Shown: positions 1,341 to 12,036 of the stretch, in pieces
How the letters are laid out: the number at the start of each line of letters is the position of its first letter
How positions within the stretch are numbered: position 1 is the stretch's first letter
NCBI GenBank assembly: GCA_947624645.1
Contig: CANQLG010000011.1
Location: 1 to 59,502 of the forward strand
DNA length: 59,502 nt
From: Candidatus Gastranaerophilales bacterium
GTDB taxonomy: Bacteria; Cyanobacteriota; Vampirovibrionia; Gastranaerophilales; Gastranaerophilaceae
Reading direction: 5' to 3'
Notes under the pieces: generated by a model
What the model saw: the letters and a program-made list of their open reading frames with translations, nothing else
Told to the model about the DNA's origin: nothing
The model's database searches: none
Position numbers and translations under genes: made by a program

Positions 1341-1720
1341 TGAGTATAGACAGGAGCTTGATCAATTGCCAAATTTACAAATTCTTGATTTATTTCGTTA
1401 GTAGGTTTATTAATTTCTTGTCTATTATTATCACTTATATTATAATGCACGGTTATTTGAGCATCTTGCTTATTGTTGACTTTTTCTAAAGAATAATTTC
1501 CATTATTGTCTTGTACCCATTTGAAATAGGCAATATCTTTTCCGGTACCATATTCGGATTTTTTCAAGTAAGTACCAGTATCTTCCGCATTTACGGGAAG
1601 AGAAGATAAGTTAAACACGGATACAATTGATACGGCAAGTAAAAGTCCAAAACTTGACCTAACTCCCTTAAATAAGCCTATTCTCGCTCCGGGGGGGGGT
1701 ACAGGTTTAATTTTCTTCAT
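1..1720 (-). CDS. PMP-like repeat surface protein, partial (C-terminus outside window)
   Basis: The reading frame is open from the ATG at 1720 to the window edge (573 codons) with no stop, so the 3' end is missing. After a Lys-rich start and PPPGAR, a hydrophobic stretch (about residues 24-40, SFGLLLAVSIVSVF) and VNA/ED look like a Sec signal peptide ending near residue 45. From about residue 128 the protein is a run of at least 14 degenerate units of about 30 residues, each opening GGAI(Y/F/A)N and carrying (D/N)F(I/A)xN in its second half. Alternating GGAI and FxxN motifs are the hallmark of chlamydial polymorphic outer-membrane proteins and predict a parallel beta-helix passenger. An autotransporter barrel would lie beyond the window, so secretion type is inferred. 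A TGAGGA ribosome-binding site precedes the ATG. A C9 tract on the coding strand encodes the three prolines, so slippage would shift the frame. Confidence 0.8.
   Translation of the reverse strand, partial: MKKIKPVPPPGARIGLFKGVRSSFGLLLAVSIVSVFNLSSLPVNAEDTGTYLKKSEYGTGKDIAYFKWVQDNNGNYSLEKVNNKQDAQITVHYNISDNNRQEINKPTNEINQEFVNLAIDQAPVYTQGGAIYNNGNIITNIISDFIGNNIHNYSVGENFVLGGAIYNGNSAEIQKIEGDFIGNYSRATYKAVGGAIYNENAEIQKIEGDFIGNYTNSKTNNSEGGAIANFWGEIDDIKGNFIGNYAYSDTFADGGAITNFNYGSRIGNIEGNFAYNYARSENGLAYGGAIFNEIAEIQKIEGDFIGNYTNSKTNNAQGGAIDNDNNSEIGGIKGNFKGNHSDAYLNARGGAIFNNNKAKIEKIESDFIENYTNSKTNNSSGGAIANVNSEIGGIKGNFIGNYTYAKEYAYGGAIENYDSKIGDIEGNFAYNYVRSTNSNASGGAIKNDGFDVSEGENSIGNITGNFIENYAKGKNTASGGAVFNENNAKIGNITGDFIKNYATSDWDVHGGAIYNYKSSSIGDIKSDFIGNYSYTEGNTSHGGVIDNCNSIIGKITGDFIENYSQGAKDSYGG
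1691..1699. repeat. G9 homopolymer (C9 on the coding strand) in signal-peptide coding region
   Basis: Nine consecutive G on the + strand in an otherwise very AT-rich area. On the coding strand it reads as three CCC proline codons at residues 8-10 of the surface protein. With nine residues the frame is open; C8 or C10 would shift it. It is a candidate slipped-strand phase-variation tract, though homopolymer sequencing error cannot be excluded. Confidence 0.75.
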
Positions 1721-7532: not shown

Positions 7533-7545
7533 AATGTTTGAAATC

Positions 7546-7875
7546 CTAGAGTGCAATTTGTTTATTTCTTTTTGTTTGATTAAAAGGAATAATATTTGAA
7601 AGTACGCTTTCAATTTTTTGCCCTTCTTGCAATAATTCCAGATTAGATTGGAGTCTTAAAAAATAGCCTTTAGAAAGTCCAAAATATTTTGTTAATCTCA
7701 AATCAGTATCGGCAGTAATGCCCCTTTGCCCTCTAACAATAGCATTAATTCTGTTTGGTGGTACTTTAATAGCCTTGGCTAATGCATTTTGAGTTATATT
7801 TAGCGGGTCTAAAAATTCATCTTTTAGAATTTCTCCGATATGAGGTATTGGAATATTTTCATTATTTTTTAACAT
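7546..7875 (-). CDS. higA: HigA-type antitoxin (XRE family)
   Basis: A 109-residue DNA-binding antitoxin with the VapI/HigA pattern: IPIPHIGEILKDEFLDPLNITQNALAKAIKVPPNRINAIVRG holds the helix-turn-helix (about 20-55), followed by GITADTDLRLTKYFGLSKGYFLRLQ. The start chosen is the ATG at 7875, nine bases after AAAGGA; a TTG two codons upstream sits too near the ribosome-binding site. It lies 76 bp downstream of the HigB-like toxin and has its own promoter with an operator-like palindrome, so it can be made independently of the toxin. Confidence 0.88.
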   Translation of the reverse strand: MLKNNENIPIPHIGEILKDEFLDPLNITQNALAKAIKVPPNRINAIVRGQRGITADTDLRLTKYFGLSKGYFLRLQSNLELLQEGQKIESVLSNIIPFNQTKRNKQIAL

Positions 7876-7895
7876 AATCAAAATCCTTTATTTAT

Positions 7896-7924
7896 ATTAT
7901 ATATTACGTACAACGTAAAATCAA
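7896..7924 (-). promoter_or_regulatory. higA promoter with palindromic operator in the spacer
   Basis: On the minus strand TTGATT (7919-7924), a 17-bp spacer and TATAAT (7896-7901). The spacer contains TTACGT-N3-ACGTAA (7904-7918), a perfect inverted repeat in the place where a HigA repressor would block RNA polymerase. Confidence 0.7.
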
Positions 7925-7951
7925 GAGTGCAAAAAATATAATTAATAAAAA

Positions 7952-8236
7952 TTAATAATGGTAATCCGTAATTTCAACATTTAGGGCATTATTATCAACC
8001 CAGTTAAAGCAAATGCGGTATTGGTCATTAATTTTTATTGAATATTGTCCTTTTCTGTCCCCTGACAAAAATTCAAGATGATTTGATGGCGGGATACGTA
8101 AATCTTTAATATTTTCTGAAACGTCTAGAATGTGTAATTTAATTAAAGCTCGAGTTTGAATTTCATTGGGTAATTTTTTAGAAAACTTACCGTTAAATAT
8201 TTTTTCGGTTTCTTTACAAGCAAAATTTTTAATCAT
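7952..8236 (-). CDS. higB: HigB-type toxin (RelE superfamily mRNA interferase)
   Basis: A 94-residue toxin of the plasmid-maintenance killer family. Diagnostic parts are the N-terminal FACKETEKIFNGKFSKKLP, RALIKLHILDVSENIKDLRIPPSN, LEFLSGDRKGQYSIKINDQYRICF and the C-terminal NVEITDYHY. These toxins cleave mRNA in the ribosomal A site and are neutralised by HigA. The toxin-first order with the antitoxin downstream is the usual higBA order. No Shine-Dalgarno sequence precedes the ATG; TAAAAT lies six bases before it, suggesting a leaderless and perhaps weakly translated mRNA. Confidence 0.9.
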   Translation of the reverse strand: MIKNFACKETEKIFNGKFSKKLPNEIQTRALIKLHILDVSENIKDLRIPPSNHLEFLSGDRKGQYSIKINDQYRICFNWVDNNALNVEITDYHY

Positions 8237-8242
8237 AGTTTT

Positions 8243-8248
8243 ATTTTA
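8243..8248 (-). promoter_or_regulatory. -10-like hexamer six bases before the higB start
   Basis: TAAAAT, then AAAACT, then ATG on the minus strand, with no ribosome-binding site. The spacing would start the transcript at the A of the ATG. Confidence 0.4.
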
Positions 8249-8307
8249 GCATTTTTGATACTTTGTATTTTCATATAAAAAACTGAATTTGATAATTTAT
8301 ATCACTC

Positions 8308-8338
8308 TTGCTTCGGGGGGGGGTAAAAGTTGTATAAT
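8308..8338 (+). promoter_or_regulatory. Candidate phase-variable promoter of the lipoprotein gene
   Basis: TTGCTT (8308-8313) and TATAAT (8333-8338) are separated by 19 bp, and nine of those bases are a G9 run (8315-8323). Losing two G would restore 17-bp spacing. It lies 29 bp upstream of the lipoprotein start. Confidence 0.65.
8315..8323. repeat. G9 homopolymer in promoter spacer
   Basis: Second G9 tract of the window, in an AT-rich intergenic region. It shares the surroundings GCTTCG9TA with the tract at 1691-1699 (GCTCCG9TA). Confidence 0.8.
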
Positions 8339-8367
8339 GATTAAGCACTCAAGATTAGGAGTTTTTA

Positions 8368-10710: not shown

Positions 10711-12036
10711 ATGGAACAAAAATCCATTTTTGATAATAATAAAAATCAGCCCTTAGCTTCAAGATTAAGACCTCAAACTTTAGAAGAATTTGCAGGTCAA
10801 ACGCATCTTTTAGGCGAAGGGAAAATTTTAAGACGTTTAATAGAAAATGATCAAATATCTTCTTTAATCTTCTGGGGACCTCCCGGGGTGGGTAAAACTA
10901 CTTTGGCAAGGATTATAGCCAATAAAACTCACTCATCGTTTATTGACTTTTCGGCAGTAACAAGCGGAATAAAAGAAATAAGAACCGTTATGCAGCAGGC
11001 TGAAGATAACAGGCGGCTTGGAAAACGCACTATTATTTTTGTCGATGAAATCCATAGATTTAATAAGGCTCAGCAAGATGCTTTCTTACCGTTTGTCGAA
11101 AAAGGAAGTATCATATTGATTGGTGCCACAACCGAAAATCCGTCGTTTGAGGTTAACAGTGCTTTATTGTCAAGATCTAAAGTCTTTGTTTTACAACCCT
11201 TAAAAACTGATGAATTAGTTACACTGTTACGGCGTGCAATTAAGGATGAACGAGGATTTGGCGCTTATAAAATTAATATCTCCGAAGAAATGCTTAAAAT
11301 GATAGCCGAATTTGCTAACGGGGACGCCAGAAGTGCTTTATCTACTCTCGAAATGGTTATTATAAACGGTGATATTATTAATGAAAATGAAATTACAGTT
11401 ACTATGAACACCATGGAACAGTGTATTTCTAAAAAATCTTTATTGTATGATAAAAACGGCGAAGAACATTATAATGTTATTTCAGCTTTACATAAATCTA
11501 TGCGAAATTCTGACCCTGACGCTGCCGTATATTGGCTGGCAAGGATGCTGGAAGCCGGTGAAGACCCGTTATATATAGCAAGACGGGTTACAAGATTTGC
11601 AAGTGAAGATGTGGGTCTAGCTGACCCTCACGCTTTATCCGTTGCAGTTGCCGCATATCAGGCTTGCCACTTTATCGGCATGCCAGAATGCTCTGTTCAT
11701 CTTACTCAAGCCGTTATTTATATGGCTATGGCACCAAAATCAAATTCCATGGATGTTGCTTATTTAAGCGCAAAACAAGATGCAATTAAGCATTTGGCAG
11801 AACCTGTTCCGCTTATAATCAGAAATGCGCCTACTAAGTTAATGAAAGAATTAAATTATGGTAAAGGCTATAAATATGCACATGATTATGATGAAAAAAT
11901 AACCTCTATGCAGTGTCTGCCTGATTCGTTAGCGGATAGAGAATATTATAAACCTACGGAACAAGGGCTTGAAGCAAAATATAAGACTAAACTTGAGCAA
12001 ATTAAAGCTTGGAAAAAAGAACATAAAAATTCGTAG
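10711..12036 (+). CDS. rarA: Replication-associated recombination protein A (AAA+ ATPase)
   Basis: A 441-residue RarA/MgsA protein that acts at stalled replication forks, related to clamp-loader subunits. Walker A is GPPGVGKTT (56-64) and Walker B is FVDEIHRFN (110-118). Sensor 1 follows as GATTENPSFEVN and the arginine finger as LLSRSKVF. The C-terminal MgsA domain has SALHKSMRNSDPDAAVYWLARMLEAGEDP, RRVTRFASEDVG and the final GYKYAHDYD region. AGGAGAG precedes the ATG. It converges with priA, with only 8 bp between stop codons. Confidence 0.95.
   Translation: MEQKSIFDNNKNQPLASRLRPQTLEEFAGQTHLLGEGKILRRLIENDQISSLIFWGPPGVGKTTLARIIANKTHSSFIDFSAVTSGIKEIRTVMQQAEDNRRLGKRTIIFVDEIHRFNKAQQDAFLPFVEKGSIILIGATTENPSFEVNSALLSRSKVFVLQPLKTDELVTLLRRAIKDERGFGAYKINISEEMLKMIAEFANGDARSALSTLEMVIINGDIINENEITVTMNTMEQCISKKSLLYDKNGEEHYNVISALHKSMRNSDPDAAVYWLARMLEAGEDPLYIARRVTRFASEDVGLADPHALSVAVAAYQACHFIGMPECSVHLTQAVIYMAMAPKSNSMDVAYLSAKQDAIKHLAEPVPLIIRNAPTKLMKELNYGKGYKYAHDYDEKITSMQCLPDSLADREYYKPTEQGLEAKYKTKLEQIKAWKKEHKNS

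Follow-up and report, generated by a model that had tools for sequence, protein, structure and literature searches.

Why should the promoter of a lipoprotein gene hold nine consecutive G residues between its -35 and -10 elements, and what might such a tract do for the gene behind it? The question is raised by one site in the window, which is the whole 59,502-nucleotide stretch of DNA analysed here and represents one complete contig of a 71-contig draft genome from a Candidatus Gastranaerophilales bacterium. The probable answer is a phase-variable promoter, where slippage changes the -35/-10 spacing, and which is part of a family of exchangeable promoter-gene units.

A poly-G promoter and its family

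The initial annotation had placed TTGCTT and TATAAT 19 bp apart, on either side of a G9 tract and ahead of a lipoprotein gene, and these coordinates were confirmed when the sequence was read (Table 1), with TATAAT lying 29 nt before the ATG of the lipoprotein gene. The site is unreported by a generic sigma-70 scan in which spacers were limited to 16-18 bp.

Table 1. Features at the window promoter, and recurrent elements beside other copies of the family. Positions are those of the window unless a locus is named.
Feature	Position	Strand	Basis or remark
-35 element TTGCTT	8308..8313	+	sequence read; TTGC conserved across promoter family
Single C between TTGCTT and G tract	8314	+	sequence read
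G9 contingency tract	8315..8323	+	sequence read; family range 8-11 G
Conserved 9-bp spacer half TAAAAGTTG (consensus TAAAAGTGG)	8324..8332	+	family comparison
-10 element TATAAT	8333..8338	+	sequence read and family comparison
Short leader with Shine-Dalgarno AGGAG (8357-8361)	8339..8367	+	ATG 26-30 nt past -10 in most copies
Predicted serpin-like lipoprotein ORF, 404 aa	8368..9582	+	ATG 8368; structure prediction and Foldseek
Upstream module, HigA-like antitoxin and HigB-like toxin	7537..8307	-	reassorted relative to promoter-gene unit
HigA-like antitoxin	7546-7881	-	within upstream module
HigB-like toxin	7952-8236	-	within upstream module
~300-bp upstream block	upstream flanks of L126, L130, L137, L140, L148, L149, L153
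~164-aa protein copies	L172 5560-6054; L141 1705-2202, 3767-4261, 5479-5973

Within its own genome the promoter motif is present in 11 copies with 0-1 mismatch, the next matches having 3 mismatches, which is the control level, and about 50 copies of the family are found in 13 of the 41 species genomes of the genus, each species being represented by one draft MAG assembly. The family consensus is TTGC-N3-G(8-11)-TAAAAGTGG-TATAAT-28 nt-ATG, where the conservation of TATAAT and of the G tract is partly the result of selection because the family searches required TATAAT and at least 6 Gs. An open search (G7, 3-28 free bases, TATAAT) found 12 different tracts in the own genome, and in 11 of these TAAAA[GA]TNN exactly fills the 9 nt between tract and -10. 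With the -35 left unspecified in the search, TTG was found exactly 7 nt ahead of the tract in all nine own-genome copies that have upstream sequence; across the genus it lies at -7 in 44 of 49 copies and at -8 in four, and the adjacent columns hold little information. The ATG falls 26-30 nt past TATAAT in most copies. The fixed TTG and the fixed distance to the ATG therefore show the -35/-10 promoter to be real and its leader to be fixed; judged from its sequence, the window promoter is a member of a multi-copy family and no chance occurrence.

Between TTGC and the tract, the three bases at -3 to -1 are unusually variable in all copies; among 15 pairs with upstream flanks of at least 90% identity, 10 differ there. 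In one copy ACTTTGT-TT-ACAAAGT was considered as a hairpin of the 5' leader or as an operator palindrome and rejected, the other copies being just partly symmetric.

Could the tract have arisen by chance, or as an assembly artefact such as the poly-G of two-colour sequencing? The data are all draft MAGs, and copies are found at the ends of contigs C30, C52 and C63, but an origin of this kind is hardly credible when 13 species from separate samples share the same element, 15 bases of its 3' side being conserved. The named genomes with homologous loci are Candidatus Gastranaerophilales MAGs labelled Lapin (rabbit), and the window genome is presumed to come likewise from rabbit gut; the sole named match outside the Gastranaerophilales, a contig of 3.2 kb, belongs to a 'Bacilli' MAG of the same set of samples and is probably misbinned. 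The promoter was unmatched in IMG/VR, so there is no sign there of a phage element.

Tract length and promoter spacing

Among 49 copies the tract is G8 in three, G9 in 30, G10 in 14 and G11 in two, as given by the assembly consensus, and across the family the spacers between the hexamers are mostly 18-21 bp, with a mode of 19. In pairs of copies with homologous genes (at least 80% over at least 250 bp), tract length is unequal in eight of 21, for instance G10 against G8 or G11 against G9, although these copy pairs are not independent of one another. No full-length copy has 6 or 7 Gs, though the searches accepted such lengths, and the alternative G7 form with a 17-bp spacer that had been proposed for the lipoprotein promoter is accordingly absent from the family. 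The variation in length that had been expected does occur from copy to copy (G8-G11), but not at the lipoprotein gene itself, where the versions in three genomes (G000, G011 and G034) all have G9; the version in a fourth, G006, has decayed to G7A8. Given the three G9 versions, the support for phase variation comes from the family and the genome-wide spectrum of runs, not from direct variation at this gene.

This spectrum was taken from a 443-kb sample of the window genome (31.8% GC), in which there are 5, 0 and 2 G/C runs of length 6, 7 and 8, then 18 of length 9, 8 of length 10 and 4 that are longer, where a first-order model expects about 28, 5.5, 1.1 and 0.2 at lengths 6, 7, 8 and 9. The distribution is thus two-humped, with runs of 6-8 scarce and runs of 9-10 plentiful, and is of the contingency type. 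Over the whole genome there are 47 runs of at least nine G (fewer than one expected per 440 kb), many of which are inside surface-protein or glycosyltransferase genes; many are placed early in genes or at frame ends, a glycosyltransferase locus included. The window alone has 4 overlapping matches to runs of eight or more G against 0.15 expected. Across the genus, counts of runs of at least nine range from near 0-8 in some species to 16-119 in others.

Several tracts lie outside the promoter family. A C9 tract in the window (1691-1699, minus strand) falls at about codon 7 of a 573-aa ORF, and its context, TAAATAAGCCTATT.TCGCTCC-G9, is found again at L180 (G000:C40), which suggests that a further poly-G family exists in the N-terminal parts of coding regions. 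A glycan-synthesis locus, L173 (G000:C63), has three poly-G tracts (7-18, 2308-2317 and 2804-2816) at or inside glycosyltransferase-like genes, one of which has a frame that stops at its tract. At L160 (G000:C3:60000-79999) four tracts with similar flanks follow in a row, near 10738, 12524, 14329 and 15829, apparently in tandem paralogues, and at two of them ORFs end. The 119 tracts of at least nine G in genome G032, mostly preceded by a C among those listed, occur where the promoter family is absent and probably represent another repeat or phasome type.

How might the tract act at the promoter? Slipped-strand replication errors within the population would alter the number of Gs between TTGC and TATAAT, and the altered spacing would lead RNA polymerase to engage the serpin-like gene with a different strength from cell to cell. 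By analogy with the porA and tp0126 promoters described below, shortening of the tract should raise transcription and lengthening should lower it. Phase variation through the promoter spacer is the best reading because the G tract varies within a fixed frame and because runs of at least nine are in excess genome-wide. The idea of a spacer switch put forward in the initial annotation stands as regards a -35/-10 pair with a contingency-type tract between them, and not as regards the form it was expected to switch to. Counted against phase variation is the length of the dominant spacers, 19-20 bp, a wide departure from 17 bp, the usual value.

That all the spacers are 18-21 bp and never 17 would also fit a tract that affects expression through DNA shape, promoter melting or regulator binding, and not through spacer length. 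The conservation of TAAAAGTGG and of the leader goes beyond what sigma-70 needs and points the same way, and opc and tprL (PMC7864442) offer precedents by which a similar effect is possible at these promoters. However, the -35 element keeps its place beside the tract within unrelated flanks, which suggests that the distance to the -10 matters, and the ordinary promoters of the genome have a weak TTG excess at 16-18 bp, albeit in numbers too few to decide. An effect that bypasses spacing is therefore considered unlikely, and altered spacing is retained as the preferred explanation.

Reassortment at the promoter

The second property of the family is that promoters, genes and flanks have been reassorted. 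In 18 of the 21 gene-homologous pairs the upstream flanks are unrelated and homology begins near TTGC; conversely, among 30 pairs that are alike in their upstream flank, three have the same gene downstream and 27 have different genes. The window locus has both kinds of relative. In G019 the HigB/HigA-like module together with the promoter (7537-8340) is 90.6% identical but precedes a different gene, the homology stopping two bases past TATAAT, whereas in G034 homology breaks after the terminator of the preceding gene (7532), restarts at TTGC (8308) and runs as far as the stop codon of the lipoprotein gene; the toxin-antitoxin module is replaced by 180 bp of unrelated sequence. In the pair L148/L153 both flanks match and the gene differs from leader to stop codon, which has the form of an in-place gene swap. 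From these breakpoints the promoter is seen to be a reassortment junction. A block of ~300 bp right upstream of the promoter is common to at least seven copies that have different genes downstream (Table 1).

In mechanistic terms, the promoter and short leader would be the part that stays the same at the 5' end of exchangeable promoter-gene units, and through recombination between copies one promoter would come to stand before different genes, and one gene behind different flanks. Homologous recombination over the roughly 60-bp promoter-leader is, we infer, the simplest explanation. Although the genome has 12 tyrosine recombinases, none was identified as dedicated to the family; the only one found beside a copy, at C52, was discounted as part of a prophage-like replication/integration module.

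The clear swapping of promoters between loci raises a further possibility, namely that recombination homogenises a constitutive promoter in which the tract is passive, its length neutral and the gene unswitched. The predominance of G9, shared by the three closest versions of the window promoter, would be in keeping with this. It is nevertheless quite improbable, given that length varies in the tract while the rest of the element is rigid, and that the scarcity of runs of 6-8 and the enrichment of runs of 9-10 are genome-wide, extending to tracts within genes. It can be tentatively proposed, at rather less than even confidence, that in this non-pathogenic gut relative of Cyanobacteria the poly-G promoter is doubly used, as a per-gene slippage switch and as a recombination junction for in-place swaps of surface genes such as those for kelch propellers, a serpin and others.

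The genes behind the promoter

The product of the window gene, a predicted lipoprotein, has a signal peptide and a lipobox-like FTAGC, and its N-terminal match to NCBIfam PG1828_fam_lipo is under the cut-off. The suggestion that it is a surface antigen is better reworded as a serpin-like lipoprotein. An AlphaFold2 model of the 404-aa protein (pLDDT 77, pTM 0.75) matches serpins of the PDB in Foldseek with E 1e-10 and aligns to them structurally with Z 18.0 and rmsd 4.3 over 287 residues, from which the lipoprotein family is predicted to have a serpin fold. PF00079 gives a weak match in nine of 30 homologues (best E 4.3e-5), the window protein itself being unmatched, and C-terminal peptides of antitrypsin reach E 0.3. 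The family has a C-terminal FDRPFVLFL. The modelled loop 344-361 is unstructured where the reactive-centre loop lies, and G343 and K347-S348-E349-A350 are invariant among the 30 homologues; G343 and K347-A350 resemble a serpin hinge with extra residues, and an inhibitory role is putative. Miropin and chloropin have the predicted fold in common with the window protein (Z 17.5 and 17.8, respectively), which differs from them in its 9-16% identity and in the hinge-like segment with extra residues. Miropin is a lipoprotein, as is predicted for the window protein. The same genome encodes a 46% identical paralogue with no poly-G upstream, and more distant homologues in the genus lack it too, which is why the poly-G-driven copy probably derived within an older family.

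The other genes of the promoter family mostly encode predicted membrane kelch propellers, in which kelch repeats follow a membrane or signal segment at the N-terminus, and Pfam Kelch_1/2/4/6 score above their cut-offs in several of them. The model of one of them has a propeller preceded by a transmembrane helix, and for this protein Foldseek returned galactose oxidases and Keap1 (E 1e-13). When Kelch_4 was searched genome-wide, nothing passed the threshold used, a single repeat being too short, though the whole proteins match. Across 20 aligned kelch proteins mean column identity is 26%, with promoters that are nearly identical. The near-identical promoters, about 11 in the genome, would drive membrane kelch propellers together with other, mostly envelope-type proteins.

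Two further elements accompany the kelch genes. A REP-like palindrome, GGTTGGGTTAGCGGAGCGTAACCCAACA, follows the stop codons of several of them (L132, L136, L149 and others); the genome has no REP/IS200 Y1 transposase (PF01797), and the palindromes thus lack a resident enzyme of this type. Convergent to kelch units lies a recurrent protein of ~164 aa (..NESPEQV..PNPRTIRI..), which belongs to no known family (Table 1).

Comparison with known systems

In porA of Neisseria meningitidis and in tp0126 of Treponema pallidum a poly-G tract lies between -35 and -10, with an optimum spacing of 17 bp; in porA the hexamer spacing is set by tract length (PMC7864442). The likeness to porA, a poly-G spacer at a surface protein gene, upholds it as a precedent, whereas opc, which had been cited beside it, is no clean spacer switch since its poly-C overlaps the -35 (PMC7864442). 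porA is also a single gene, unlike the multi-copy family with 18-21 bp spacers in an unrelated lineage described here. Treponema is closer in having poly-G promoters at several surface-protein genes (tp0126 and tpr), and the tprL tract (7-11, mode 9) is near the family's G8-G11 with mode G9; in tprL, however, the tract lies at the -10/start site, outside the spacer, and promoter-gene reassortment, as found here, goes undescribed for Treponema in the portion available (PMC7864442).

The phasomes of Campylobacter and Helicobacter likewise have dozens of G8-11 tracts at surface and glycan genes (PMC6321876, PMC2823697). Their tracts differ in being mostly coding. We know of no shared promoter cassette in these phasomes. 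The Vpma system of Mycoplasma agalactiae resembles the present one in that promoter-gene combinations of surface lipoproteins are shuffled by recombination (PMC5634654), but there Xer1 carries out site-specific inversion with one promoter, whereas here the units have a poly-G promoter each and the window genome yielded no dedicated recombinase.

Significance for the Gastranaerophilales

Multi-locus phase variation, a recent review notes, looks confined to pathogens, perhaps through database bias (PMC11868660), and no report of phase variation in Gastranaerophilales was found in the open-access literature. Here a large predicted poly-G phasome is present in uncultured gut Gastranaerophilales. 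The system is larger than first described, the window promoter being one copy of a genus-wide, reshuffled family that probably allows surface proteins to be switched and reshuffled. If a slippage switch and a gene-swap junction are truly combined, this would be a design unlike the known single-gene promoters. The sharing of one promoter by many surface-type genes makes the system testable from existing rabbit metagenome reads, and the predicted serpin offers a concrete candidate product, which may inhibit proteases at the gut surface in a switchable manner.
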